From the NCBI GenBank assembly GCA_028370155.1, contig CP116670.1, positions 3,162,001 to 3,226,000 of the forward strand: a stretch of 64,000 nucleotides of DNA, in the 5' to 3' direction. This document shows positions 4,792-27,429 of the stretch, in pieces. Under the pieces are notes generated by a model. It was not told the DNA's origin and searched no databases. It was given only the letters and a program-made list of their open reading frames with translations. The number at the start of each line of letters is the position of its first letter. Position 1 is the stretch's first letter. Source of the DNA: Arthrobacter sp. OVS8. GTDB lineage: Bacteria; Actinomycetota; Actinomycetes; Actinomycetales; Micrococcaceae. A program made the translations under genes and the position numbers.

Positions 4792-6796
<2,005 letters not shown>

Positions 6797-6798
6797 TC

Positions 6799-7456
6799 AT
6801 GCCGCACCACGGTAACGAAGAAGAGCACGGATCTTCCGAGAGCCGTCGCGACGCCGCCAATCAGGAAGGCGAGCCGCAGAAGCCGATCATCCACGACAAC
6901 CGCAAGGTTGATCCGAAGACCGGCCAGGCCCGCCACCCCGACCAGGAGCACGCGGAGTCCGGGGACGCCCTGTCCCAGGCGGAGGACATCCTCAACAGTG
7001 TTGAGGTGCCCGCCGCGGAATCCGTGGCCCAGGGTGTCGACGGCGCGGAGGCGGAGGAGCTCAGGAATGATCTCCGCCGTCTGCAGGCCGAGTACGTCAA
7101 CTACCGCAAGCGCGTCGAACGCGACCGTGCCGTGGCAGGAGATGGCCGTCATTGGCGTCCTGAACTCCCTGCTCCCGGTCCTGGACGACGTGGACGCCGC
7201 CCGCCAGCATGGTGACCTCACGGACGGACCGTTCGCCGCGATCGCCGCCAAGCTGGAGAACGCGCTGAAGACGTACGGCCTGGTGCGCATCGATGAGACC
7301 GGCGTGGAGTTCGACCCCACGATCCACGAGGCCCTCATCCAGCAGCCCGGCCCGGATGTCGAGATCGACACCGTCAGCCAGGTCCTGCGCTCGGGCTACA
7401 AGTCCGGTGAACGTGTGCTCCGCGCAGCACAGGTCATCGTGGCAGTGCCGGCGTAA
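6799..7456 (+). CDS. grpE: GrpE nucleotide exchange factor (frameshifted)
   Basis: GrpE releases ADP from DnaK. The acidic N-terminal region leads into the coiled-coil segment LRRLQAEYVNYRKRVERDR and then the conserved C-terminal half (VLNSLLPVLDDVDAAR, FDPTIHEAL, GERVLRAAQVIVAVP). The reading frame changes near 7135 (GTGGCAGGAG), where either one base is extra or two are missing, so one or two residues are uncertain. The ATG lies 2 bases after dnaK, indicating translational coupling. Confidence 0.95.
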
Positions 7457-7473
7457 CTACCTCCACGCCTCCG

Positions 7474-7574
7474 CGGATGAGGGGCCCCGCCCCTACGCGT
7501 GGTGGCAAAGTCCTAACGGACTTTGGCCACCACGCTCCGGTAGGCCCGATGCCACTCCCGGGCCCCCTCATCCG
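7474..7574. repeat. Long imperfect palindrome between grpE and dnaJ
   Basis: Two nested inverted repeats. The outer arms, CGGATGAGGGGCCC (7474-7487) and GGGCCCCCTCATCCG (7560-7574), differ by one extra base. The inner hairpin spans 7497-7535: about 17 paired bases closed by a TAAC loop, with a single bulged G. It lies inside an operon whose genes are normally co-transcribed, so it may be a partial terminator, an mRNA processing site or a mobile palindromic repeat. Confidence 0.7.
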
Positions 7575-7631
7575 CTCCGGCGTTCAGCGGTAATCTCGCC
7601 TTAACTCTTTGTACTTTGAAAGGAAACGCCA

Positions 7632-8618
7632 TTGGCTAGCCAGGACTGGGTGGACAAGGACTTTTACAAGATCCTTGGAGTCGCCAAGGACGCTTCCGAC
7701 GCCGACATCAAGAAGGCCTACCGGAAGCTCGCGCGGCAGCACCACCCGGACACCAACGCGGGGAACACCGCTTCGGAGAAGAAGTTCAAGGACATCTCCG
7801 AGGCCTACTCAGTGCTCTCCGATCCCGACGAGCGCCAGCAGTATGACGCCATCCGGGCCATGGGCGGCGCACGGTTCGCCCCCGGCGGCGGAGGCGGCGG
7901 CGCCGGTGGCGGGGCTGGCTTTGAGGACCTCTTTGGCGGTCTGTTCACCGGCGGCGGCGGTCGCCACTCCGGCGGCTACAGCACGTCCGGCGGCATTCCG
8001 CCGGAGTTCGCGGACCTCTTTGGCGGAGGCGCCGGCGGCTTCGGCGGCGGGCAGTCGTTCCAGCGGGCGGCGCAGAAAGGCGCGGACCGGACGGCGTCCA
8101 CCTCCATTTCCTTCGCCGGCTCCATCCGCGGCACCACCATCGGCCTGCGTGAACCCGACGGAGAAGTCATCGACGTGCGCATCCCGGCCGGCATCAAGGA
8201 CGGCCAGAAGGTCCGGGTCCGCGGCAAGGGCCAGTACGGTCCGGCCGGCAACGGGGACCTGATGGTCACGGTCTCGGTGAAACCGCATGACTTCTACGTC
8301 CGCGACGGCGACAACCTCCGCATCCACGTGCCGGTCACGTTCCCGGAGGCAGCACTGGGCGCCGACATCGAGGTTCCCACCATCGACGGCGACAAGGTCA
8401 AAGTACGGGTCCCGGCCGGCACGCCGTCGGGCCGCACACTGCGGGTCAAGGGACGCGGCGTCAAGCACGCCAAGGCTACCGGGGACCTGCTGGTGACCAT
8501 CGACGTCGCCGTCCCGCGGAAGCTGAACAAGGACGCCGAAGCCGCCGTCAAGGCCTTCTCCGCGGCCACCGCCGGCGAGGATGTCCGCGCCGAACTGGCA
8601 GCCAAGGCCCGGCTCTAG
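7632..8618 (+). CDS. dnaJ: DnaJ-type co-chaperone without zinc finger
   Basis: J-domain co-chaperone of 328 residues. The J domain is at the N-terminus (about residues 10-75), with the HPD motif in RQHHPDTN. A Gly/Phe-rich linker follows, then two C-terminal beta-domains ([38 protein letters not shown]). The CxxCxGxG zinc repeats of classic DnaJ are absent, so it is a class II (CbpA-like) DnaJ. The start is a TTG at 7632 behind AAAGGAAAC; no ATG fits the family N-terminus. Unlike its operon neighbours this gene is intact. Confidence 0.93.
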
Positions 8619-11535: not shown

Positions 11536-12355
11536 TCAGTAACTGGTGGGGGTGGCGCCGGAGGCCGGTGTCACGAATCTCGCAGCGAGGGCTTCGCTGC
11601 CCCGGGCGAGGAGGGCGACATCGGCGCCCACCAGAACAAAGGCCGCGCCGGAGGCCAGATAGTGGTCCGCGGTGGCCGGGTTGAAGGCGTTTACGCCGGC
11701 GGGTTTGCCGGCGGCCGCGGCCGCCGCGAGGCAGTGTTCGACGGCGGCACGCACGTCCGGGTGTTCCTGCTGCCCCAGCACGCCCATGGACGCGGCGAGG
11801 TCCGAGGGCCCCAGGAAGATGGCGTCCACGCCGTCGACCGCCAGGATCTCCGCCACGGCCTCGACGGCCGCGGCGGATTCAATCTGGACTGTGACGCTGA
11901 CAGTGCCGGAGGCCCGGCCAGATACTCGGGGACCCGGTTCCAGCGGGATGCACGGGCCAGCGCGGAGCCCACGCCGCGCACGCCCTGCGGCGGGTACCGG
12001 GTGGCGGCCACGGCGGCTTCCGCCTCGGCCGCCGAGTTCACCATGGGGATCAGCAGGTTCTGGGCGCCCAGGTCCAGGTACTGCTTGATCAGCACGGTGT
12101 CGTTGACCGGCGGCCGGACCATCACCTGGACCGGATAGCCGTTCACGGCCTGCAGCTGCGCCAGGATGGACTCGAGGCCGTTGGGGCTGTGCTCAGCGTC
12201 GATCAGGAGCCAGTCCAGTCCCGAACCGGCGCAGATCTCCGCCACCAGGGGGCTGCCCGAGCACACCCACATCCCGGCCAAGGACGGCCGGCAGCGCCCG
12301 TTTGATTGTGCAGGGCGTCCCGGAAGGTGGCGTCGGGTTCTACTCGAAGCGGCAT
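11536..12355 (-). CDS. hpaI: HpcH/HpaI aldolase (two frameshifts)
   Basis: Class II pyruvate aldolase that splits 4-hydroxy-2-oxoheptane-1,7-dioate into pyruvate and succinate semialdehyde, the last step of homoprotocatechuate meta-cleavage. The family signatures are present: [10 protein letters not shown] near residue 45, the metal-binding Glu in [11 protein letters not shown] and Asp in LGPSDLAAS. Missing bases near 12283 and 11917 break the frame; repair gives 273 residues. The start chosen ([15 protein letters not shown]) overlaps the end of hpaH by 16 bases, supporting co-transcription. It is the last gene of the operon. Confidence 0.9.
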
Positions 12356-13125
12356 GTGATGCTCCCCAGGGGTCCGTAGTCGGCGTGGACGGTATCGCCC
12401 TGGTACACCCAGAGCGGCCGGGTAAACGAGCCGGCCAGGATGATATCCCCGGCTTTCATGGCGTCACCGTGGGCGGCGATCTTGTTCGCCAGCCAGTGGA
12501 CGCCCGCGGCCGGATGGTCCAGGACCCCTGCCGCGACGCCGGTTTCCTCCACGGTCTGGTTCTTGTAGAGAATGGCGGAGACCCAGCGCAGGTCCACGGC
12601 GTCGGGACGGACGGGGTTGCCGCCCACCACCATGGCGCCCATCGCCGCGTTGTCCGCGATGGTGTCCACGATGGTCCGGCCCTCCATTTCGATCCTGGAG
12701 TCCAGGATCTCGAGGGCCGGCACCACGTAGTCGGTGGCGTTCAGGACGTCGAAGATGGTGCAGCCGGGTCCGGACAGGTCCTTCTTCAGCACGAACGCCA
12801 GCTCCACTTCCACACGGGGGTGGGTGTACCGGTCCCACTGGACCGCGCAGCCGGTCTCGAGCACCATGTCATCGAAGATGGCGCCGTAGTCCGGTTCGGT
12901 GATGCCGGTGGCCGCCTGCATGGCCTTGGAGGTGAGGCCGATCTTGCGGCCCACCAGCGTCCGCCCGGCCTCCTCGTTGCGCCGGCGCCACAGCTGCTGC
13001 ACGGCGTAGGAGTCCTCCACCGTCATGGCCGGGTAGCGGGCAGTCAGGCGGGGGACCGGTGTCCGGCTGCGGCCCGCTTCCAGCAGTTCGTCGGCGATGG
13101 CCTCGATCGTCTTGGCATCCAGCAT
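12340..13125 (-). CDS. hpaH: 2-oxo-hept-4-ene-1,7-dioate hydratase
   Basis: FAH-fold hydratase of 261 residues that adds water to 2-oxohept-4-ene-1,7-dioate in homoprotocatechuate breakdown, using Mg2+. Family features include [28 protein letters not shown] and [10 protein letters not shown], with the metal-binding acidic residues in the EVELAF region. The frame is open far upstream, but [17 protein letters not shown] (ATG at 13125) is the usual N-terminus and lies 2 bases after the hpaD stop. The gene is intact. Confidence 0.93.
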
Positions 13126-13127
13126 GG

Positions 13128-14233
13128 CTACAGCTGCGCGCCGAGCTTGAAACCGGTCTTTTCCCCGGTGTGGCCGTCCTCTTCCTTGCGGGTGTAGGAG
13201 AAGCCGTCGGCCCCCACGGTCACGGCCATTTCGCTCTTTTCCTCCCGGACGACGACGGGCTGCGGGTTGCCGTCGAGATCCAGCACCAGGGAAGCCTCGG
13301 TGTACCAGGACGGGACCACGGGGTTGCCCCACCAGTCGCGGCGCTGGTTGTCATGGACGTCCCAGGTGATGGTGGGGTTGTCCGGGTCGCCGGTGTAATA
13401 GTCCTGCGTATAGATCTCCACGCGGTGCCCGTCCGGGTCCAGGATGTACAGGTAGAAGGCGTTGGAGACGCCGTGCCGGCCGGGACCGCGTTCGATCCGG
13501 TCGCTGATGCGCAGGGCGCCCATCTTGTCGCAGATCTGGATGATGTTGTGCTTCTCGTGGGTGGCGAACGCGACGTGGTGCATGCGCGGGCCGTTGCCGC
13601 CGGTCAGGGCGGTGTCATGCACGGTCTGCTTGCGGTGCATCCAGGCGGCGTAGGTGACGCCGTCGGAGTCCTGGATGTCCTCGGAGACTCGGAAGCCCAG
13701 ATCCTCCAGGTACTTCCGGCCGCGGGGAACGTCCGGGGTCACCTGGTTGAAGTGGTCCAGCCGGACCAGCTCGCCGGCGGAGTAGAGGTCGTAGCGCTGG
13801 GTGAGGCGTTCCACGTGCTCCACCTCGTAGAAGAACTCGTAGGGGAAGCCCAGCGGGTCCTCCACCCGGACGGAGTCGCCGACCCCCTTGGTGAAGCCGT
13901 CCTTGCGGCGTTCGGTGCGGCAGCCCAGCTCCTTGTAGTACGCCTCGGCGGCGTCCACCTCGGCGGGGACTTCACCCGGTACGCGAAGGCCGCGACGGCG
14001 GCGATGGGGCCTTTGCGGAGCACCAGGTTGTGGTGGATGAACTCCTCGAGGGAGCGCAGGTAGATGGCGTTTTCGTCCTCTTCGGTGACGTGCAGGCCCA
14101 GGAGGTCCACGTAGAACTCGCGGGACTTGGCGAGGTCGGTGACCACGATCTCCATGTAGGCGCAGCGGACGATGTCCGGCGCCGGGACCGTGGGGGTGGG
14201 AACGAAGTTGTGCTGTGAAACTTGGCTGGTCAT
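13128..14233 (-). CDS. hpaD: Homoprotocatechuate 2,3-dioxygenase (one frameshift)
   Basis: Ring-cleaving extradiol dioxygenase of the vicinal oxygen chelate (type I) family, like the Brevibacterium fuscum enzyme. It opens 3,4-dihydroxyphenylacetate to 5-carboxymethyl-2-hydroxymuconate semialdehyde. The metal ligands are recognisable: His in VRLDHFNQVTPD, His in RMHHVAFATH and Glu in DGHRVEIYTQDYY. One base is missing near 13967, in a run of G; repair gives 368 residues. The ATG at 14233 opens MTSQVSQHNFVPTPTVPAPDIVRC in the usual frame. It lies between hpaE and hpaH in the operon. Confidence 0.93.
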
Positions 14234-14272: not shown

Positions 14273-15785
<1,513 letters not shown>

Positions 15786-15811: not shown

Positions 15812-15876
15812 GCAACGCGGGGTCACTTACGGCCCGTGTGGGGCCCCTTAATGGGCGCTAAGTGACCCCGCGTTGC
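15812..15876. repeat. 65-bp palindromic repeat, copy A
   Basis: Perfect 18-bp inverted repeat GCAACGCGGGGTCACTTA (15812-15829) and its complement (15859-15876), enclosing a 29-bp GC-rich centre. A second copy of exactly the same length is at 28047-28111. This copy overlaps the last codons of the GntR gene, whose C-terminus (SNAGSLSAH) is encoded by the repeat. It could work as a terminator or as a REP-like element. Confidence 0.85.
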
Positions 15877-16521
15877 TTTGGGCAAGGTACGCGTCCAGGG
15901 TGGCGGAGCGGTGCAGGCGGGCTGCTTTTTCGATGTCGTCCGCGCCGGCACCGGTCTCGATGAGCTTCAGGAGCGCCTCGTGTTCGTCCACGGACTCGTG
16001 GGCGCGGCCGGGGACGAACCGGAACGTGGAGGACCGCAGCGAGGCGAGCCGGTTCCAGCCCCGGTGGACCAGGTCCAGGATGTGCGGATTGGGGCAGTGC
16101 TCGAACAGGACGCTGTGGAAGTCCTGGTTCAGCGCGGTGAAGCGGACGGGGTCGAAGTGCTGCAGGCATTCGCGCATCTCGGCGTTCACGGCGCGTGCGC
16201 GCGCAATGTCCGCCGCCCCGATCAACGGGGCAGAGAGGGCCGTCGCGGCGCCCTCGACGATGCTCAGGGTCTGCATCGTGTAGAGGTATTCGGTGGGGTC
16301 GATCCCGGCCACGGTGGCGCCGACGTTTCGTTCGAACTTGACCAGCCCTTCAGCTTCGAGGCGGCGGATGGCTTCCCGGACCGGGACCACGCTGACGCCC
16401 AGGTCCTCGGCGATCTTCGCCAGCACCAGCCGGTAGCCGGGGAGTAGGTTCCGTCCACGATCCGGGTTTTGACGGAGGCGTAGGCCCGCTCGGATTTGCT
16501 TCCGACGGCGGTGTCAGTCAC
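15848..16521 (-). CDS. GntR family regulator, FCD type (one frameshift)
   Basis: Transcription factor with an N-terminal winged helix (AYASVKTRIVDGTYSPG; AKIAEDLGVSVVPVREAIRR) and a C-terminal FCD ligand-binding domain with histidines in FHSVLFEHCPNP and DEHEALLKLI. One base is missing near 16443; repair gives 224 residues. The GTG start at 16521 overlaps the stop of the FAH-RraA gene by 8 bases, so it belongs to the hpa operon. It probably controls that operon through the GTATAC palindrome upstream of the first gene. Effector unknown; a hydroxyphenylacetate or a ring-cleavage product would be logical. Confidence 0.87.
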
Positions 16522-18024
16522 CGGAGGCCCCTTCCCGCACCTCGGAGGTCCAGGCCTCGTACCGGGCGCGCCAGGCGGCGTTCATGGGGAAGAGCCCGTC
16601 CACGCCGTGGCCTTCCTTGACCATCTGGAAAATGAACTCCTCTTCGCGTTCCTGGGCGAGGCAATCATCGGCCAGCTCTTCCGCGAGTGCCGGGGGATCA
16701 CCAGGATGCCGTCCGCATCGGCCACGATGATGTCCCCCGGCTGCACGGTCGCCCCGCCGCAGGCGATGGTGATGTCCGTGTCCCAGGGAACGTGCCGCCG
16801 ACCGAGCACCGCGGGGTGCGGGTTGGCGAAATAGGTGGGCATGTCCAGTTCGGCCACGGCCGTGTAGTCCCGCACGCCGCCGTCGGTAATGATCGCCGCA
16901 GCGCCGCGCACCTGGGCACGCAGCGCGAGGACATCGCCCAGAGTGCCGGTGCCCTTTTCGCCGCGGGCCTCCATCACCAGAATTTCGCCCTCGTTGACGG
17001 ATTCGATGGCTCGCTTCTGGGCATTGAAGCCGCCGCCGTGTGTCTTGAAGAGGTCTTCGCGGTTGGGCACGTAGCGCAGGGTCCGGGCCAGCCCGACGAC
17101 GCGGCGGTCCGGGCGGGTGGTCTGCAGGCCGTCGATGCTGACGTTGTTCAGTCCGCGCTTGCGCAGCTGGGAAGACAGAGTTGCGGTGCAGACCCTTTCC
17201 AGCTTCGCCTTCAGCTCCGGGGACAGGACATGCCCGACGGCGGCCTCCGGCGCCTCCGGTGCCAGAGCAGGAAGCCCCGCCGCTTCGCGGGAACCGTAGG
17301 CTTCCTCCCGCTGCAGATCGTCCGTCTTGGGCCGGGCGCCGAAGTCCGCGAACGGCGTCGTGCCTTCCTCCACCCGGGTGACCAGCCGGCCGGTGGTCAG
17401 GTCAGCGCTGCTGACCTCGACCTCGACGACGTCGCCCGGCGTGGCGACCGAGGCCCCGGCCGGGGTGCCGGTGAGGATGATGTCCCCTTCTTCGAGGGTG
17501 AGCAGCTGGGAGAGGTCGGCCACGAGCCGGGCGAACGGGAAGAGCAGGTCGTGGGTGGTGTCGTCCTGGACCAGTTCGCCGTTGTGCCAGGTGCGGATCC
17601 GCAGTGCGGCGGGGTCCACGGCGTCCGCCGCGATCAGGCCCGGGCCCACGGGCGTGAAGCCGTCGCCGCCCTTGGACCGGAGGTTGGAGCCCTTGTCCGC
17701 ATAGCGGAGATCGTATACGCCGAGGTCGTTGCTGGCCGTGACCCACTCGACATGGCTCCAGGCGTCCTCGAGGCTCACGCGCCGGGCGGCCTTGCCGATG
17801 ATCAACGCGATTTCGCCCTCATAGCCGAGGAGTTCGCAGCCGGCGGGACGCTCCACTGTTGAGGGTGCCTGTGCCGAACCGACTGCCAGGGAGGACGATG
17901 GCTTCAGGAAGTAGGAAGGCTGCTCCGGCGTACGGCCGCGCTGGGCGGCCCGGCTGGGGTAGTTGATATGCACCGCGATGACCTTGCGGGCCGCGGCCAG
18001 GGTGTGGTCGGTGACCTGTTCCAA
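16514..18024 (-). CDS. FAH-RraA fusion, probable HpaG-type isomerase/decarboxylase (one frameshift)
   Basis: Two-domain protein of 503 residues. Residues about 1-250 are a fumarylacetoacetate hydrolase-fold domain of the HpaG isomerase type (GYEGEIALIIGKAARRVS, DLRYADKGSN, LLTLEEGDIILTGTPAG). Residues about 275-500 are an RraA-fold domain resembling HMG/oxaloacetate aldolases, with TLSSQLRKRG, IITDGGVRDY (the Arg-Asp pair used for metal and substrate) and WDTDITIACGG. Escherichia coli HpaG instead joins two FAH-fold units. Here the RraA domain could supply the decarboxylase half; that is inference. One base is missing near 16685. The TTG at 18024 is chosen because GAGGAG lies 7 bases upstream. 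Confidence 0.85.
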
Positions 18025-18166: not shown

Positions 18167-18202
18167 TTCGATTATCGAACACTAAATTCTATTATCGAAC
18201 AC
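18167..18202. promoter_or_regulatory. Operator-like repeats before the flavin hydroxylase gene
   Basis: A perfect odd-centred dyad, TTCGATTATCGAA (18167-18179), overlaps the first of two direct 12-bp repeats, ATTATCGAACAC (18171-18182 and 18191-18202), spaced 20 bp apart. They lie 45-80 bases upstream of the hydroxylase start. The spacing, about two helical turns, suggests a dimeric activator or repressor, possibly IclR type; no such gene is in the window. Confidence 0.55.
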
Positions 18203-18246: not shown

Positions 18247-20169
18247 GTGCATTTCCACCACCACGGATACGTATCCGGTGACCCGCGCGTCCAGCCGGCT
18301 GCCGGCGTCGGCATCGACCGCCCCACCCAGCTTCCTGACGAGGTGGACGTGCTCATCGTGGGCACCGGGCCCGCAGGTATGCTCGCGGCCGCCCAGCTGT
18401 CCCAGTTCCCGGGCGTCACCACCCGCATCGTGGAGCGCCGCGCCGGGCGGCTCGCCATCGGCCAGGCCGACGGCATCCAGGCCCGGGTGTCGAGACCTTC
18501 CAGGCCTTCGGCTTCGCGGAGCGGATCATCGCCGAGGCCTACCGCATCACCGAGATGGCATTCTGGAAGCCGGACCCCAGAACCCCGCGAAGATCGTCCG
18601 CAGCGCGCGCACCTCGACGACCCGGGCGGGATCAGCGAGTTCCCGCACCTCATCGTCAACCAGGCCCGCGTGCTGGATTACTTCGGCGAATTCATGGCCA
18701 ACTCGCCCTCCCGCATGGCGCCCGACTACGGCTACGAGTTCGTCGGGCTCGAGGTCGGCGAGGGCGAGTACCCCGTCTCGGTGACGCTCCTCCACACCGC
18801 CGGCCCTGACGAGGGCCAGACCCGCACAGTCCGGGCCAAGTACGTCGTGGGCGCGGACGGCGCGCGCAGCAGGGTCCGTGCTTCGATCGGCTGCACCATG
18901 GCCGGTGACCAGGCCAACCACGCGTGGGGCGTTATGGACGTGCTGGCCAACACGGACTTCCCCGACATCCGCCTCAAGTGCGCCATCCAGTCCCACGACG
19001 GCGGCAGCATCCTGCTGATCCCGCGCGAGGGCGGGCACCTCTTCCGGATGTACGTCGACCTCGGCGAGGTGCCCGCAGACGACAAGGGGGCCGTCCGCAA
19101 GACCACCATCGAGCAGATCATCGCCAAGGCCAACGCGATCATCCACCCCTACACGCTGGACGTGCGCAACGTGGCGTGGCACAGCGTCTATGAGGTGGGC
19201 CACCGCCTCACCGACAGGTTCGACGACGTCCTGCCGGAGGACCTCGGCACCCGCACGCCGCGTGTGTTCATCACCGGCGACGCCTGCCACACGCACAGCG
19301 CCAAGGCCGGCCAGGGGATGAACGTTTCCATGCAGGACGGCTTCAACATCGGCTGGAAGCTCGGCCACGTGCTGGAGGGCCGCAGCCCGGAGAGCCTGCT
19401 CTCCACGTACTCGGCCGAGCGGCAGGTCGTCGCGAAGAACCTCATCGACTTCGACAAGGTGTGGTCGACGCTCATGGCGAAGAAGCCCGAGGAGTTCGAG
19501 AACCCTCCGAGCTCGAGGACTTCTATGTGCGCACCGCCGAGTTCCCCGCGGGCTTTATGACCGAGTACTCGCCGTCGATGATCGTCGCCGAGGCGACGCA
19601 CCAGAACCTGGCTACCGGCTTTCCCGTCGGCAAGCGCTTCAAATCCGCGCCGGTGGTGCGGGTGTGCGACACCAACCCGGTCCAGCTCGGCCACCAGGCC
19701 ATGGCGGACGGCCGCTGGCGCATCTACGTCTTCGCGGACGGGGCGGCGCCGGGTGAGTCGGCGGCGGCCCCGTCGCCGACCGCGGACCTGGCTGCGTGGC
19801 TGGCGAACGCTCCGGACTCGCCGCTCGCCGCCACCCCGGGGGCGCCGACAGTGACGCGTGGTTCGATGTGAAGGTGGTCTACCAGCAGGACCACACGGGC
19901 ATCGATATCGGCGCGGTGCCTGCGGTGTTCAAGCCGGAGGTGGGGCCGTTCAAGCTCACCTACCTGGAGAAGGTCTACGGCACCGATCCGGCGGCGGACA
20001 TCTTCGAGCTGCGCGGCATCGACCGCGGCGGCGCAATGGTGGTGGTGCGCCCGGACCAGTACGTGGCGAACGTCCTGCCGCTGACGGCGACGGCGGAGCT
20101 CGCCGCGTTCTTCGCGCCCCTCCTGCGTTCCGGCAACCGCACCCCGAATTGCAGGATCACGCGGGCTGA
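18247..20169 (+). CDS. FAD-dependent aromatic hydroxylase, MobA/phenol hydroxylase type (about six frameshifts)
   Basis: Flavoprotein monooxygenase of about 642 residues. It closely resembles 3-hydroxybenzoate 4-monooxygenase (MobA): an N-terminal dinucleotide fold (VDVLIVGTGPAGMLAAAQL), GQADGIQAR, the NAD(P)H/FAD motif YVVGADGARSRVR, the FAD motif VFITGDACHTHSAKAGQGMN, and a C-terminal thioredoxin-like domain ending near ELRGIDRGGAMVVVRPDQYV. Missing bases near 18490, 18580, 18612, 19503, 19850 and 20150 are needed to restore the frame. The GTG at 18247 has GAGGA upstream. It is divergent from the homoprotocatechuate operon, so its substrate may be a hydroxyphenylacetate rather than 3-hydroxybenzoate; the sequence does not decide this. 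Confidence 0.85.
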
Positions 20170-20359: not shown

Positions 20360-21769
20360 TCAGCCGTTGATCACCTGCGGAACACCCAGGGCTTTGAGGC
20401 CTTCGACGCCGAACTCGAGTCCGTAGCCGGACTGCTTGGCACCGCCGAAGGGGATGCGCGGGTCCACGGCGCCGTGTTTGTTGATCCAGACAGTGCCGGC
20501 CTCGAGCCGGGCAGCGACGTTGCGGGCTGCCACGGCGTCGGCGGACCAGACGGAGGCGCCGAGGCCGACGTCGAGCGCGTTCGCCATCGTGACCGCCTCG
20601 TCCACGGTGCCGTACCGGACGATCGGGAGCGCGGGGCCGAACTGTTCCTCGGCGACCAGCGGGTTGGTGTTGTCGATGTCGGCGACCAGGGTGGCGGGGT
20701 AGAAGTGCCCGGGCCGGTCGGCGTCCGGGTTGCCGCCCAGGAGGATCCTGGCCCCCGACTCGCGTGCCGCTTCCACCAGCCGGGCCACGACGTCGTACTG
20801 CTGCTTGTTCTGCAGCGGGCCGAGGACGTTGGTCTCGTCCAGTCCCACGCCCATGGGCATCGCGGCGGCCACGGCGGTGAGCTCTTCGCAGACGGCGTCG
20901 TAGATGTCGGTGTGGACGTAGAGGCGCTTGAGCGCCGCGCAGGTCTGGCCGGTGTTGATAAACGCGCCCCAGAACAGGCCCTCGGCGATGGCCTTGGGGT
21001 CGGCGTCGGGCAGGACGATGCCGGCGTCGTTGCCTCCGAGTTCCAGGGTCAGGCGTTTGACGGTGTCCGCGGAGGATTTGATGATGGCCTTGCCGGTGGC
21101 GGTGGAGCCGGTGAACATGACTTTGCCGATGGCCGGGTGCCCGGCCAGGGCCTCACCGACGTCGCGGCCGCCGGAGACGACGCTCAGCAGCCCGTCGGGG
21201 AGTTCCTCGTTGATGACCTTCGCCAGGGCCAGGACGGACAGCGGCGTGTATTCGGAGGGTTTGACCACCACGGCGTTGCCCATCCGCAGGGCGGGGGCGA
21301 GCTGCCAGATGGTGATCATCATGGGCCAGTTCCAGGGCCCGATCGCGCCGACGACGCCGATGGGCCGGTAGTGCAGTTCGGCGCGGGTTTCGCCGTCGTC
21401 CACGACGGTTTCCGGGTCCAGCGGGGTGCCGGCGGCGGCGCGCAGCCAGGCGGCGCAGGCGCCCACCTCGAACCGTGCGTTCGGGCCGTTGAGCGGCTTG
21501 CCCTGCTCGCGTGAGAGCAGCCGGGCCAGTTCTTCGGCGGAACGTTCGACGGCGTCGGCGGCCCTCAGCAGGGCGGTGCTCCGGGCGTCGTGGCCCAGCG
21601 CCGCCCAGGCCGGCTGGGCGGCTTCGGCGGCGGCAATTGCCTGCTCGAGGTCCTGGACGGTGTGGACCGGGGCTGCGCCGACGACCGTGCCGGTGGCTGG
21701 GTCAAAGATGGTCCGGGTTTCGCCGGCGTCCGGGGTGATCGAGGCCAGGAGGGCATCGTAGGTTTCCAT
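20360..21769 (-). CDS. NAD(P)-dependent aldehyde dehydrogenase
   Basis: Intact 469-residue aldehyde dehydrogenase. Family marks: GAIGPWNWPMMITIWQLAPAL, the catalytic Glu region LTLELGGNDAG, the catalytic Cys in NTGQTCAALKRLY, and PFGGAKQSGYGLEFGVEG near the end. The ATG at 21769 has GGAG upstream. It lies between the ring-degradation genes and the permease/amine oxidase genes, so the natural substrate would be the phenylacetaldehyde or 4-hydroxyphenylacetaldehyde released by the amine oxidase. That assignment is inferred from context. Confidence 0.9.
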   Translation of the reverse strand: METYDALLASITPDAGETRTIFDPATGTVVGAAPVHTVQDLEQAIAAAEAAQPAWAALGHDARSTALLRAADAVERSAEELARLLSREQGKPLNGPNARFEVGACAAWLRAAAGTPLDPETVVDDGETRAELHYRPIGVVGAIGPWNWPMMITIWQLAPALRMGNAVVVKPSEYTPLSVLALAKVINEELPDGLLSVVSGGRDVGEALAGHPAIGKVMFTGSTATGKAIIKSSADTVKRLTLELGGNDAGIVLPDADPKAIAEGLFWGAFINTGQTCAALKRLYVHTDIYDAVCEELTAVAAAMPMGVGLDETNVLGPLQNKQQYDVVARLVEAARESGARILLGGNPDADRPGHFYPATLVADIDNTNPLVAEEQFGPALPIVRYGTVDEAVTMANALDVGLGASVWSADAVAARNVAARLEAGTVWINKHGAVDPRIPFGGAKQSGYGLEFGVEGLKALGVPQVING

Positions 21770-22087: not shown

Positions 22088-23556
22088 ATGAGTATTTCGA
22101 ATTCCGAGTCCCGGACCACTGAAGCCGCTCCCCGCAAGGAGCATTCAACCGCGCTCCGCGCCGGCAGCATCGGCGTGATGGGCATCCTGTTCTTTGTCCT
22201 GTCCGCCCAGGCACCCCTCACCGGAATCGTCGGGGCGTCCCCCTGGCGGCCGCGCTCGGCAACGGCGCCGGCGCTCCCGGCGCCTACCTGATTGTCGGCA
22301 TCGTCATTGTGATCTTCGCGGTGGGATTTGTCGCCATGAGCCGGAAAATCCAGGCGAACGGCGCCTTCTACGCCTATGTGACCGCCGCGTTCGGGCGTCA
22401 GATCGGCGCCGGCGCGGCCTGGCTGGCGCTGCTGGCCTACAGCACGGTGCAGGCCGCCATGTACGGACTCTACGGTGCCGCCTTCTCCGGCCTGCTGGAG
22501 TCCGCCGGGGTCAGTGTTCCCTGGTGGCTGCTGGCCCTGGTCACCATGGCCGGTGTGCAGGTGCTGGGGTCCCTGAACATCGAACTTGGCGCCCGTGTGC
22601 TGGCGCTGCTGGTGGGGCTGGAAGTGGCCGTCCTGCTGATGTTCGGGTTCAGCGTCCTGTTCCGCGGCGGCGGCCCTGAAGGACTCAGCCTCGCGGCGTC
22701 CTTCTCCCCGGAGGCGATCGCCACCGGCGCCCCCGGTGGCCATCATGTTCGCCGTGGCCTCCATGTTCGGCTTCGAATCCACGGCGATCTATTCCGCCGA
22801 GGCCAAGGACGCCCACCGCACGGTGGCCCGGGCCACCTACCTGTCGGTCGTGGTCATCGCCGTGTTCTTCTCCTTCATCTCGTGGATGCTGGTCAGCTAC
22901 TACGGCCCGTCCCAGGTGGCCGCGGCCGCCGGTGCGGCTTTGGAGTCCGGCGACTCCACTGCCTTTGTCCTGACTCCGATGGTGGAAATGTTCGGGCCGT
23001 GGGCGGGAATCACCACGGGCATCCTGCTGGTGACGTCCCTGCTGGCAGGAATCATCGCCTTCCACAACGGCATCAACCGCTACCTCCATTCACTGGCGCT
23101 CCGGGGCTCCCTGCCCGGCGCTGTGGCCGGACCAACCGGCACTGCGCGCCGGCCGCAGCCGCCTGGATCCAGACCGCCACCGCCGTCGTCCTGGTGGTTC
23201 CCTTCGCCGTGCTGGCCCTGGACCCGGTTCTGACCCTTTTCTCCTGGTTCAGCGGACTGGCTGTCGCGGCACTGCTGGTGCTGTACATGCTGTGCTCGAT
23301 CGCCGTCGTCGGCTTCTTCCGCCGCGAACGTGCGGAAGGACAGCTCTGGCAGACCCTTATAGCTCCGTCGCTCGCATCGCTCCTGCTGGCCTGGGTCCTG
23401 TACCTGGTGGTCAGCAACTTCACGTCGCTGATCGGTGGCAGTGCCGAGACGGCCGCTGCCCTGCTGGCGGCGGTTCCGGTGGTGTTCGCCGCGGGTGTCC
23501 TGGTGGAGCGGCAAGTGGAGAAGCGCGGGGCCGCGCTCGCGGCGGTCCCCGCCTGA
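22088..23556 (+). CDS. APC family amino acid/amine permease (three indels)
   Basis: Membrane transporter of about 489 residues with some 12 helices. It starts MSISNSESRTTEAAP, and its first helix, MGILFFVLSAQAPLTGIVGA, is typical of APC permeases. AMYGLYGAAFSGLLE, MFAVASMFGFESTAIYSAEAKD and HNGINRYLHSLALRG also fit. Bases are missing near 22245 and 23140, and one C appears extra near 22733. The gene sits between the aldehyde dehydrogenase and the regulator/amine oxidase genes, so an aromatic amine or amino acid is the probable cargo. Confidence 0.87.
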
Positions 23557-23681: not shown

Positions 23682-24653
23682 TCAGGCGCCGCGGCGCCAG
23701 TCGGTGGGTGATTCGCCGAAGGCGTCCCGGAAGGTGCGGCTGAAGTGTGCCGCGTCCAGGAAACCCCACCGGGCGGCGACGGCACCCACGGACTTTCCGG
23801 CGTGAAGCGGGTCCCGCAGTTCCCGGCGGGCGCCCTCCAGCCGCTGGCTCCGGATCCAGCAGGCAACGGTGGTGCCTGTTTCGTGGAAGACGTTGTGCAG
23901 GTGGCGGGTGGAGATGAAATGGGCCGCCGCGATGGAAGCCGGCGACAGCAGGGGATCCGCCAGGTTTGCCTCGATGTACTCCCGGACGGAAACGGCCAGC
24001 AGGGCCTGCGGTTTCATCCGGTCGGGGGACATGTCCAGTTCCGCATGCAGCATCGTGGAGACGAGATCGAGGGCATTGGTGGCGAGGCGGGACCCGCTGG
24101 GGCCGCCCAGCGCATCCAGGTTCTCCGCGAGGTGGGCGATGAACGGCCCGACGATGGCGGCGAGGCCGCCGTCGGAGGCCATCCGCACGGCCGAAAGCTG
24201 CGCGATGCAGTCCGGCGGCAGGGACAGTGCGTCCCAAGGAAACATCACCACCATGAGCCGGGCGTCGCCTTCGAAGGCAAGCGTGTAGGGGCGGCTGGTG
24301 TCATAGATCGAGAGATCGCCCGGGTGCAGGACTGCCTCGCGGTTGTCCTGGATGAGGAGTCCGGTGCCCTCCAGCTGGAGGTTGAGCTTGAAATAGCGCT
24401 GGCTGGACTGCGCGATCAGCGCCGGCGTGCGGTGGACCTCGTGACTCGTGGAGGAGACCTCGACAAGTGCCACACGGTCCAGCCTGCGGGCCCGCATGCG
24501 ACCGTGGAAGTTATCCGCATCCCCGCTCGAGGCGGCGAGGGGAACGAAGGACTCCGCGACGAGGTGCCGCCAGTGGTCGAAGGATTCGGCCGTGCTGGTT
24601 CGGACGTCCTGTCCGGCGGGACCGAGCGAGGGACGGGCTGCAACTGCGGTCAT
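23682..24653 (-). CDS. AraC family transcriptional regulator
   Basis: Intact 323-residue regulator. The N-terminal half is an AraC-type sensor domain of the AraC_binding_2 kind (FKLNLQLEGTGLLIQDNREAVLHPGDLSIYDTSRPY). The C-terminal hundred residues carry two helix-turn-helix motifs (SPASIAAAHFISTRHLHNVF and SVGAVAARWGFLDAAHFSRT). Related regulators control aromatic amine and aromatic acid catabolism. Its position between the permease and the amine oxidase region suggests that it activates these genes when amine or aldehyde is present. Confidence 0.88.
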   Translation of the reverse strand: MTAVAARPSLGPAGQDVRTSTAESFDHWRHLVAESFVPLAASSGDADNFHGRMRARRLDRVALVEVSSTSHEVHRTPALIAQSSQRYFKLNLQLEGTGLLIQDNREAVLHPGDLSIYDTSRPYTLAFEGDARLMVVMFPWDALSLPPDCIAQLSAVRMASDGGLAAIVGPFIAHLAENLDALGGPSGSRLATNALDLVSTMLHAELDMSPDRMKPQALLAVSVREYIEANLADPLLSPASIAAAHFISTRHLHNVFHETGTTVACWIRSQRLEGARRELRDPLHAGKSVGAVAARWGFLDAAHFSRTFRDAFGESPTDWRRGA

Positions 24654-24797: not shown

Positions 24798-25388
24798 CTA
24801 GCAGCCGAGCAGGGTCAGGAATCCCTCCAGCTGCTCGTTCAGCCCGAGTTCCACCTGGCCTTCCGGGGCAAGTGCCGCCGCGATCTGCGCGCCGAGGAGG
24901 AGGTTGAGCAGCTGTCCGGCGAGGGCGGCGTCGTTGACGGCGGTGGTGACGGCGCCGGCGTGCCGGGCTTCGGCGAGGTACTGGCGCATTGCCGTAAGCC
25001 ACTGCTCCATCGAATCCCGGTGGATCCGGGCCTTGTCGGGGTCGTTGATGGCCTTCTGCCAGAACGGGATGACAATCCGGGCTTCGTTGATCCGCTCCTC
25101 ATCCAGGGGCAGCACCTCAAGGCAGAATGCCCGCAGGGCCGCGAGCCCGGTATGCCCGGCGGTGACTTCCGCGATCCTCTCGTTGGTGCGGTTGAAGACG
25201 TGCCCGAACGCGAAGGTCAGCAGGTCATCCTTGGTGGGAAAGTAAGGCTTGAGGGCGCCGTTCGCAAAGCCAGCCTCGAGGGCAATCTCCCGCATGGTGG
25301 CGCTTTCGATCCCGAGCCGGGCGATGATCCGCCACGTGGCGTCGACGAGTTCGAGCCGCCGCTGGTCGTGGTCGACAATCTTTGGCAC
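24798..25388 (-). CDS. TetR family regulator (BetI-like)
   Basis: Repressor of 196 residues if read from the GTG at 25388; the frame is open to 25430, but GGGGAG lies upstream of the GTG and [20 protein letters not shown] is the usual N-terminus. Helix-turn-helix: [21 protein letters not shown]. The C-terminal domain resembles that of BetI-like regulators ([35 protein letters not shown]). It is divergent from the amine oxidase and separated from it by an operator-like palindrome, so it probably represses amine oxidase expression. Confidence 0.87.
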
Positions 25389-25444
25389 GGGACAGCTCCC
25401 CAATTTTCTTGCGTCGGACTCTTGTGGCACAGCTTACATTTCCG

Positions 25445-25506: not shown

Positions 25507-27429
25507 ATGATGACCGCACAAACCGAAACCAGCACCTCGTACACCCCGTACCGCCTGGCCGCGGACGCCGAAATCACCGAAGTCCGGGCCATCCTGCGCG
25601 CGGCGGGCCTGCTGGGCGAGACCAGGCGCATCGCCTACCTGGGCCTGATGGACCCCACCAGGAACGCGCCGGAGGGATTCGAGGACCGCCGGTTCCGCAT
25701 CTTCATCCACGACATCTCCGGCGGCGCACCCACGGACGCCGTGGTCTCGGTGACCGGGCGGGACGTGGTCTCCGCCGTCGAACTGGACACCGCCGTCACG
25801 GGCGAGCTTCCGGTGCTCGAGGAGGAGTTCGAGGTGGTGGAGGCACTCCTCGCCGCGGACGAACGCTGGCTCAACGCGCTCGCAGCGCGCGGGCTCGACG
25901 TCAGCAACGTCCGCGTCGCACCCCTGTCTGCGGGGGTCTTCGAATACCCGGAAGAAAAGGGGCGCAGGATTCTGCGCGGCCTTGCCTTCGTGCAGGATTT
26001 CCCCGCGGACAGCGCCTGGGCCCACCCTGTGGACGGTCTCGTGGCCTACGTCGATGTGGTCAGCCGGGAGGTGACGCAGGTCCTGGACCTGGGCGCCGTG
26101 CCTGTCCCGAAGGAACACGGCAACTACACCGACCCTGAACTCACGGGCCCGCTCCGCACCACCCAGAAGCCCATCAGCATCACCCAGCCGGACGGGCCCG
26201 GCTTCACCGTCAGCGGCGGAAACCACGTCGAGTGGGAAAAATGGAGCCTCGACGTCGGCTTCGATGTCCGCGAGGGCGTGGTGCTGCACAACATTGCTTT
26301 CCAGGACGGTGACCGGAAGCGGCCCATCATCAACCGGGCGTCCATCGCCGAGATGGTGGTCCCGTACGGCGACCCGTCGCCGATCCGGTCCTGGCAGAAC
26401 TACTTCGACACCGGCGAATACCTCGTGGGCCAGTACGCCAACTCCCTGGAACTGGGCTGCGACTGCCTCGGCGAGATAACCTACCTCAGCCCGGTCATCA
26501 GCGACGCGTTCGGCAACCCCGGGAGATCCGCAACGGCATCTGCATGCACGAAGAGGACTGGGGAATCCTGGCCAAGCACAGCGACCTGTGGACGGGCATC
26601 AACTACACCCGACGCAACCGCCGCCTGGTGATCTCCTTCTTCACCACCATCGGCAACTACGACTACGGCTTTTACTGGTACCTCTACCTCGACGGCACCA
26701 TCGAGTTCGAGGCCAAAGCCACCGGCGTGGTCTTCACCTCCGCCTTCCCGGAGGGCGGATCGGACAACATCTCCCAGCTGGCCCCCGGCCTGGGGGCACC
26801 CTTCCACCAGCACCTCTTCAGTGCCCGCCTGGACATGGCCATCGACGGCTTCGCCAACCGGGTCGAGGAGGAGGACGTGGTCCGCCAGGCGATGGGCGCC
26901 GGCAACGAGCGCGGCAACGCCTTCTCCCGGAAGCGCACTGTCCTTTCCCGGGAATCCGAGGGGTCCGTGAGGCAGACGCCGCACGCGGCAGGACCTGGGT
27001 CATCTCCAACCCGCAGTCCCTGAACCGTCTCGGCGAGCCCGTGGCCTACAAGCTCCACTCCGGGAATCAGCCCACCCTGCTGGCGGCCCCGGAATCCTCG
27101 ATCGCCCGGCGCGCCGCTTTCGCCACGAAGGACCTGTGGGTGACCCGCTACGCCGACGATGAGCGCTACCCCACGGGCGACTTCGTGAACCAGCATGCCG
27201 GCGGGGCGGCCTGCCGGCCTACATCGCCCAAGACCGCGACATCGACGGCCAGGACATCGTGGTGTGGCACACGTTCGGCCTCACCCACTTCCCGCGTCCC
27301 GAGGACTGGCCCATCATGCCGGTGGACACCGTGGGCTTCAAGCTCCGGCCGGAGGGCTTCTTCGACCGCAGCCCCGTGCTGGATGTGCCCGCGAGTGCGC
27401 AGCCGGCCGGCGGCCACTGCCACGGCTAG
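25507..27429 (+). CDS. Copper amine oxidase, phenylethylamine/tyramine type (three frameshifts)
   Basis: Topaquinone copper amine oxidase that converts primary aromatic amines to aldehyde, ammonia and hydrogen peroxide. From memory it is very close to the Arthrobacter globiformis phenylethylamine oxidase throughout. The cofactor tyrosine is in [11 protein letters not shown], the catalytic base Asp in [10 protein letters not shown], two copper His in [16 protein letters not shown] and the third in [15 protein letters not shown]. Missing bases near 26520, 26960 and 27210 break the frame; repair gives 641 residues. The start is one of two adjacent ATGs (25507 or 25510). It is divergent from a TetR gene; tyramine, phenethylamine or histamine would be candidate substrates. 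Confidence 0.95.

Follow-up and report, generated by a model that had tools for sequence, protein, structure and literature searches.

Which enzyme forms the homoprotocatechuate that is broken down by an hpa operon of Arthrobacter sp. OVS8? We addressed this question in a stretch of 64,000 nucleotides (positions 3162001-3226000 of contig CP116670.1, hereafter the window), in which a minus-strand hpa operon for homoprotocatechuate meta-cleavage is faced by a divergent gene for a MobA-like single-component flavin adenine dinucleotide (FAD) hydroxylase (18247..20169, plus strand, with a GTG start at 18247 and a stop codon ending at 20169; frame-broken in the assembly). The enzyme usual for this step, 4-hydroxyphenylacetate 3-hydroxylase, is defined as two-component (HpaBC) in a 2024 review (PMC10816480). 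Taking family, genomic context and distribution together, we consider it probable that the MobA-like gene encodes a one-polypeptide hydroxyphenylacetate hydroxylase, most likely acting on 4-hydroxyphenylacetate, that feeds the hpa pathway and is controlled by an IclR-type regulator in common with hpaCB and an MFS transporter.

We scanned the three frame pieces of the gene against Pfam and NCBIfam. Pfam returned FAD_binding_3 (E-value 7.6e-56) and two halves of Phe_hydrox_dim (2.4e-22 and 4.4e-24), and the NCBIfam model NF006144/PRK08294 matched the three pieces with E-values of 5e-200, 6.8e-43 and 3.2e-35 at model positions 1-420, 419-535 and 530-635, the first piece alone scoring 666 bits against a cut-off of 560, which places the gene in the PRK08294 family. 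Using the intact relative from Paenarthrobacter aurescens TC1 as a query, the nearest solved structure was 3-hydroxybenzoate hydroxylase (PDB 2DKH, E-value 5.4e-200). The window gene is thus confirmed as a class A FAD hydroxylase of the MobA/PRK08294 family, and the domains, the structural match and the gene order bear out the preliminary description, which had placed at this site a single-component flavoprotein nearest to 3-hydroxybenzoate 4-monooxygenase and divergent from the ring-cleavage operon.

We then considered the two-component enzyme. In the window, PF03241 (HpaB) had no match, tblastn of three HpaB proteins gave none either, and tblastn of HpaC gave only a match of 51 amino acids (E-value 0.008) antisense to the MobA-like gene. 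The sole PF03241 match in the whole source genome was at G000:C1:114988-115584, in an hpaC-hpaB pair 3 Mb from the window. The earlier suggestion that the flavoprotein stands in place of HpaBC thus holds at the locus but not across the genome. HpaBC would share with the MobA-like enzyme the proposed reaction and the position in the pathway, whereas it consists of a PF03241 protein and a separate flavin reductase and belongs to an unrelated protein family; the MobA-like enzyme carries its FAD domain within a single polypeptide, and beside its gene no reductase gene was seen. The distant pair lies in an IclR-hpaC-hpaB-MFS cassette at about 113.0-117.2 kb of G000:C1 (L056, 7955-12192), in which the IclR gene is divergent and both hpaB and the MFS gene are frame-broken.

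To assess how the gene is distributed, we evenly sampled 218 genomes of the order from a larger group. HpaD, the homoprotocatechuate 2,3-dioxygenase, was found in 57 of them and the MobA-like gene in 55, with both present in 52 (19 genera), MobA-like alone in 3 and HpaD alone in 5. The MobA-like gene therefore occurs in 52 of the 57 genomes with HpaD and in 3 of the 161 without it (Fisher P 1.5e-40, for genomes that are related and not independent), and the two genes are at most 20 kb apart in 40 of the 52 genomes having both, so that they are linked as well as co-occurring; G490 holds a further pair about 5.4 kb apart, provided that its single contig is circular. HpaB (E-value up to 1e-20) was present in 9 of the 218 genomes, 6 of them among the 52 with both genes, and was missing from the other 46. 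Among 296 genomes sampled across the phylum, 10 carried HpaD: five had the MobA-like gene, four lacked it and carried HpaB under 1 kb away from HpaD, and one had neither. In this respect the MobA-like enzyme and HpaB look like alternatives for one step. In the genus sample, the MobA-like gene was found in 37/37 genomes (36 above the cut-off, with G030 in two pieces) and HpaD likewise in 37/37 (G030 below the cut-off, in pieces), with an HpaB-family gene in 18/37; the MobA-like gene sits beside a divergent hpa operon in 29/37 and does not in 8, in one of which (G007) it stands at a contig end. The MobA-like gene at the hpa locus and the distant hpaC-hpaB pair with its palindrome are together best fitted by a MobA-like enzyme that is the widespread hydroxylase and an HpaCB that is a patchy companion, and across many actinobacterial genera the MobA-like enzyme is likely a one-component replacement for HpaBC.

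The five genomes of the order sample with HpaD alone belong to one genus, and their HpaD proteins score 324-331 bits, whereas unbroken HpaD proteins elsewhere in the sample exceed 400. These genomes (G412, G440, G468, G496 and G521) have neither the MobA-like gene nor HpaB, and the substrate of their low-scoring HpaD may differ; a second HpaD of similar score was seen in G322.

A scan of named genomes gave at least 80 loci, and at least three core hpa genes were present within the fetched stretch for 34 of the 80 matches listed. Of the 42 loci with copies unlinked to hpa, we took the open reading frames of 7 and compared them with the full set; leaving aside frames that overlap the gene itself, no neighbour was shared by more than 10 loci. 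The association with hpa extends to the gammaproteobacterium Salinicola endophyticus (L265, 2.8-16.6 kb), in which a hydroxylase 74% identical to that of TC1 is divergent from hpaE, hpaD, hpaG, hpaH and hpaI, and no HpaB or HpaC match was found at E-values up to 0.01 within the 22 kb examined. The hpa genes of Salinicola are merely 37-51% identical to the actinobacterial ones, and an aldehyde dehydrogenase and AraC-type regulators stand beside the cluster; its MobA-like gene is of the actinobacterial type and has apparently crossed phyla.

The gap between the divergent genes holds two copies of a 13-bp palindrome, which we treat as a predicted operator: a distal copy, TTCGATTATCGAA, at 18167..18179 (no strand assigned) and a proximal copy, TTCTATTATCGAA, 20 bp further at 18187..18199 on the plus strand. 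Allowing up to two mismatches, we found a copy in the 150 nt preceding 45 of 71 MobA-like genes linked to hpa and 45 of 55 that are not, compared with shuffle expectations of 0.62 and 0.44 respectively, and before none of six proteobacterial MobA-type genes. We then searched the strict pattern TTCKATWATCGAA in 42 whole genomes, using the reversed pattern as a control, which yielded 43 distinct places in 32 of the genomes and 0 for the control. Of these places, 36 precede a MobA-like gene, whether hpa-linked or not, at 43-101 bp from its family match; the remaining seven lie between a divergent IclR gene and either hpaC (five) or an MFS transporter (two), and none was found elsewhere. The 4.18-Mb source genome has three strict places, two at the window locus and one before hpaC, and a strict palindrome precedes hpaC in four further genomes as well (G010, G014, G019 and G478, with G000 being the source). 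We dropped GntR as the reader of the palindrome, given that hpaG upstream regions lack it in 9/9 loci examined that have no adjacent MobA-like gene and that a divergent IclR gene adjoins it in seven verified places. We propose instead a putative IclR regulon made up of the transporter and the hydroxylases and separate from the hpa cleavage operon; a term search of PMC8222616 for a matching IclR motif gave a match in the reference list only.

Hydroxyphenylacetate is a product of tyrosine and tyramine. In the pathway that we propose from these data, tyramine would be converted to 4-hydroxyphenylacetate by an AGAO-like oxidase and a FeaB-like dehydrogenase; tyramine, and hence 4-hydroxyphenylacetate, is suggested because genes for an amine oxidase, a FeaB-like and a FeaR-like protein are nearby. 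The class A FAD enzyme, presumably using NAD(P)H itself, would hydroxylate 4-hydroxyphenylacetate next to the existing hydroxyl, and the product would be homoprotocatechuate, since HpaD is present, to be degraded further by HpaD, HpaE, HpaG, HpaH and HpaI. A regulator of the IclR type, predicted as to both its identity and its mode of action, would read the palindrome and co-control the MobA-like gene, the second and patchy hpaCB pair and the MFS transporter.

Several observations weigh against this pathway. The source genome itself has a good-looking HpaB (349.5 bits to TIGR02309 on a broken frame, with a flavin reductase before it), whose relative in L039 reaches 589.4 bits, above the cut-off of 480.2. 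The preliminary description had named an hpaBC pair elsewhere in the genome, induced with the hpa operon, as an observation that would count against it; the pair was found, and the palindrome before it, the same one as at the MobA-like gene, comes close to this situation as far as a predicted operator can indicate. Family members occur without HpaD in four genomes of the phylum sample (strong matches) and in the three of the order sample given above. Strict sites are absent from 10 of the 42 genomes, no copy (up to two mismatches, 150 nt) precedes 26 of the 71 hpa-linked genes, including those of Nocardia, Cellulomonadaceae and the f6 rows, and of 12 IclR-hpaC intergenic regions seven have a site (up to two mismatches) and five do not; the nine hpaG upstream regions without the palindrome all come from loci lacking an adjacent MobA-like gene. 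Neither measurements of enzyme activity nor data on growth or expression turned up for the MobA-like gene. Finally, the six substrate contacts of MobA (D75, H135, K247, L258, I260 and Y271, with numbering and roles taken from PMC3546652 and PMC9304392) are kept in 135/135 close relatives, so that nothing in the pocket demands a new substrate.

These residue counts were obtained from 135 distinct proteins at least 68% identical to that of TC1. They repeat, without its motif filter, the counts from the protein set used for the tree, in which the filter included residue 75, making the D75 count there partly a matter of construction. The same six contact letters are present in the window gene's own frames. 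Two other positions of MobA differ: the re-strand Pro356 is Ala in 135/135 close relatives and also in 14 of 24 rows at greater distance, and the tunnel-mouth His120 is replaced by T, S, A, G or V in close relatives. The pocket would fit a phenol with a carboxylate and cannot separate 3-hydroxybenzoate from hydroxyphenylacetate, and we rejected the pocket residues as a discriminator of substrate, every contact being conserved. The preliminary description had suggested that the protein may hydroxylate a hydroxyphenylacetate or else feed another acid into the pathway, which we take as 3-hydroxybenzoate turned into protocatechuate; co-occurrence, hpa linkage and the palindrome favour the first of these, although the residues do not demand it, and the context speaks against the second, although the residues are compatible with it.

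To place the family, we built a FastTree tree of 136 rows rooted on MobA itself, from a motif-filtered protein set from which intact rows such as that of Salinicola were dropped. A single clade, with full Shimodaira-Hasegawa-like (SH-like) support and a stem of 0.64, takes in 127 actinobacterial proteins together with the window fragment; outside it fall a further actinobacterial row and the seven proteobacterial rows of MobA type. In the clade, hpa-linked (72) and unlinked (55) copies are intermixed, with 17 changes of linkage label. A division into two classes by linkage, with the linked copies as hydroxyphenylacetate enzymes and the unlinked ones as true MobA, was rejected, as the clade is mixed and the unlinked copies carry the palindrome. 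Among nine proteobacterial homologs examined, a MarR gene lies within about 2 kb in seven (L116, L117, L118, L267, L268, L270 and L273), and presumably encodes a mobR-like regulator; L118 has pca/pob genes as well, and L269 and L271 have neither MarR nor pca/pob genes in the stretch shown. The plasmid relatives from Caballeronia (L116) and Paraburkholderia (L267), each adjoining its MarR gene, are the nearest to the actinobacterial clade and have Ala at 356; a Rieske protein and a reductase of the VanB type are encoded near that of Caballeronia. On a plasmid of Pseudonocardia sp. (L119, 5560-11503), a homolog 49% identical to that of TC1 follows genes for an IclR regulator, an MFS transporter and a zinc-binding dehydrogenase on the same strand.

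Three other substrates were weighed against 4-hydroxyphenylacetate. The enzyme could be a 3-hydroxyphenylacetate 4-hydroxylase, keeping the ring positions of MobA with one extra CH2 and making homoprotocatechuate from the meta isomer, with HpaCB or another enzyme serving the para isomer. This would agree with contacts matching those of MobA, an enzyme whose substrate bears its carboxylate at the meta position, with a product that is still homoprotocatechuate, and with two hydroxylases under a common predicted operator in the source genome, and 3-hydroxyphenylacetate is retained as a possible substrate because the geometry of MobA suits a meta side chain and E. coli HpaBC is reported to accept both 3- and 4-hydroxyphenylacetate (PMC3053370). 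We nevertheless judge it unlikely, as the genes nearby indicate tyramine, which yields the para isomer, as the 46 genomes with the MobA-like gene and HpaD but no HpaB would be left without HpaB for the para isomer, and as Arthrobacter strains are reported to grow on 4-hydroxyphenylacetate or tyrosine with an hpa route proposed: the phenotype described for Arthrobacter sp. Rue61a includes growth on 4-hydroxyphenylacetate, on tyrosine and on protocatechuate but none on 3-hydroxybenzoate (PMC3534580), and Arthrobacter arilaitensis uses tyrosine, its 4-hydroxyphenylacetate 3-monooxygenase gene being reported as not located (PMC2991359).

A still less probable reading, which we hold to be very doubtful, is that the gene encodes an ordinary 3-hydroxybenzoate 4-hydroxylase feeding protocatechuate and stands beside hpa by chance. 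The protein does resemble MobA of Comamonas testosteroni (PDB 2DKH), its top structural match, in domains, in length and in all six contacts, and two Paenarthrobacter papers annotate such genes as 3-hydroxybenzoate 4-monooxygenase (mobA1, mobA2; PMC8369764, PMC11719660). It differs from MobA at residues 356 and 120, as described above, and in being linked to hpa genes and to a palindrome shared with IclR cassettes rather than to the protocatechuate (pca) genes or MarR regulator expected of a 3-hydroxybenzoate 4-hydroxylase. The tight co-occurrence with HpaD argues against this reading, as do the lack of any pca or pob gene among the 43 strict palindrome places (42 genomes), the position of the pca-linked Paracoccus homolog outside the fully supported actinobacterial clade of the MobA-rooted tree, and the reported failure of Rue61a to grow on 3-hydroxybenzoate while it uses protocatechuate. 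A phenol hydroxylase of broad range, acting on phenol, tyrosol or tyramine instead of the free acid, is scarcely credible: the family model bears the name phenol 2-monooxygenase, and the solved relatives include phenol hydroxylases (PDB 1PN0/1FOH), which share family, fold and, according to PMC3546652, the phenol contacts of MobA, but the carboxylate anchors His135 and Lys247, described there as additions of MobA absent from phenol hydroxylase, are invariant in 135/135 proteins and the ring-cleavage partners are of the homoprotocatechuate type.

We return to 4-hydroxyphenylacetate as the substrate. Extending this reading to the group as a whole, we lean, with somewhat less assurance than for the window gene, towards a one-polypeptide MobA-type enzyme as the usual 4-hydroxyphenylacetate 3-hydroxylase in much of the order of Arthrobacter, a non-orthologous replacement of HpaBC that was also passed on to an hpa cluster of a gammaproteobacterium, that is joined with HpaCB in one IclR-type regulon where a strain has both, and that is misnamed mobA. 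The mobA-annotated genes of Paenarthrobacter would, judging from the genus, belong to the actinobacterial clade, and the family is probably misannotated as mobA in published genomes. This wider pattern over genera is of more interest than the single locus, and the family offers a specific candidate for the missing monooxygenase gene of A. arilaitensis (PMC2991359). If the reading is true, it would supply a one-gene ortho-hydroxylase for hydroxyphenylacetates, useful to biocatalysis, and a comparison of how the MobA pocket, its contacts unchanged, would accept a substrate one carbon longer. No one-component or MobA-type hydroxyphenylacetate hydroxylase was found in the titles and abstract openings of the open literature, a coverage that leaves out most subscription journals.

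The hpa operon runs on the minus strand from an HpaG-like fusion of FAA hydrolase and RraA-like parts (16550..17973; NF009399 and Pfam, broken frame), its first gene, through a GntR-FCD regulator (15848..16513; Pfam, with the N-terminus in a different frame), the carboxymethyl-hydroxymuconate semialdehyde dehydrogenase HpaE (14279..15776; TIGR02299 as best match, under the cut-off on a broken frame), HpaD (13131..14233; TIGR02295 above the cut-off, broken frame) and the 2-oxo-hept-4-ene-1,7-dioate hydratase HpaH (12346..13125; TIGR02312 above the cut-off) to the aldolase HpaI (matched part 11539..12281; TIGR02311 as best match, under the cut-off, broken frame). The RraA-like half of the fusion has no obvious step in the hpa pathway, and relatives of the fusion are present in most hpa loci seen.

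On the other side of the MobA-like gene lie an aldehyde dehydrogenase (20363..21769, minus strand) that shares 82% identity with a FeaB-like gene in P. aurescens TC1, annotated there as maoB/feaB phenylacetaldehyde dehydrogenase, an amino acid/amine permease-like gene (22123..23556, plus strand) in a broken frame, whose two frames are 30-35% identical to the TC1 permease and whose open reading frame gave no match in direct Pfam and NCBIfam scans, an AraC-family regulator resembling FeaR (23682..24653, minus strand; Pfam AraC domains, and 147 bits to the FeaR model NF007243, below its cut-off of 199), a TetR-family regulator (24798..25430, minus strand; Pfam TetR_N and TetR_C_6) and a copper amine oxidase of the phenylethylamine oxidase (AGAO) type (25543..27423, plus strand; Pfam AGAO-like_N2 domain, broken frame). 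The 14 best of 31 solved relatives of the oxidase are phenylethylamine oxidase, entries that we take to be AGAO of Arthrobacter globiformis. Similar surroundings were found at other orthologs: on plasmid pTC2 of P. aurescens TC1, hpa genes, a feaB-named dehydrogenase, an amino acid permease and a copper amine oxidase; on a Rhodococcus plasmid, hpa genes, aldehyde dehydrogenases, an MFS transporter, a primary-amine oxidase and an APC permease; and in A. globiformis NBRC 12137 (L226), hpa, the MobA-like gene, a permease and an amine oxidase all together.

Three frames are required for the MobA-like gene to be covered by an intact ortholog, and the ortholog in L136 (genome G478), 98% identical over the 287 amino acids compared, has a single open frame; read from the sequence and its open reading frames, an extra out-of-frame stretch lies near 18490-18590 and a further change near 20150. 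Within the cluster, a single frame covers the full length of HpaH and of the aldehyde dehydrogenase at 20.4 kb, but at least two frames are required for each of HpaI, HpaD, HpaE, GntR, the HpaG-like fusion, the permease and the amine oxidase. Away from the cluster, dnaK at 4.8-6.8 kb is split over two frames, with dnaJ following it (window 4821-8615), which speaks for indel errors being widespread in the sequence, and the source genome is scored as 79.7% complete and 5.65% contaminated. The frame breaks are likely sequencing errors, because most cluster genes and dnaK are broken, completeness is this low and the ortholog is intact; a pseudogene was set aside given the breaks in those other genes and the intact ortholog.

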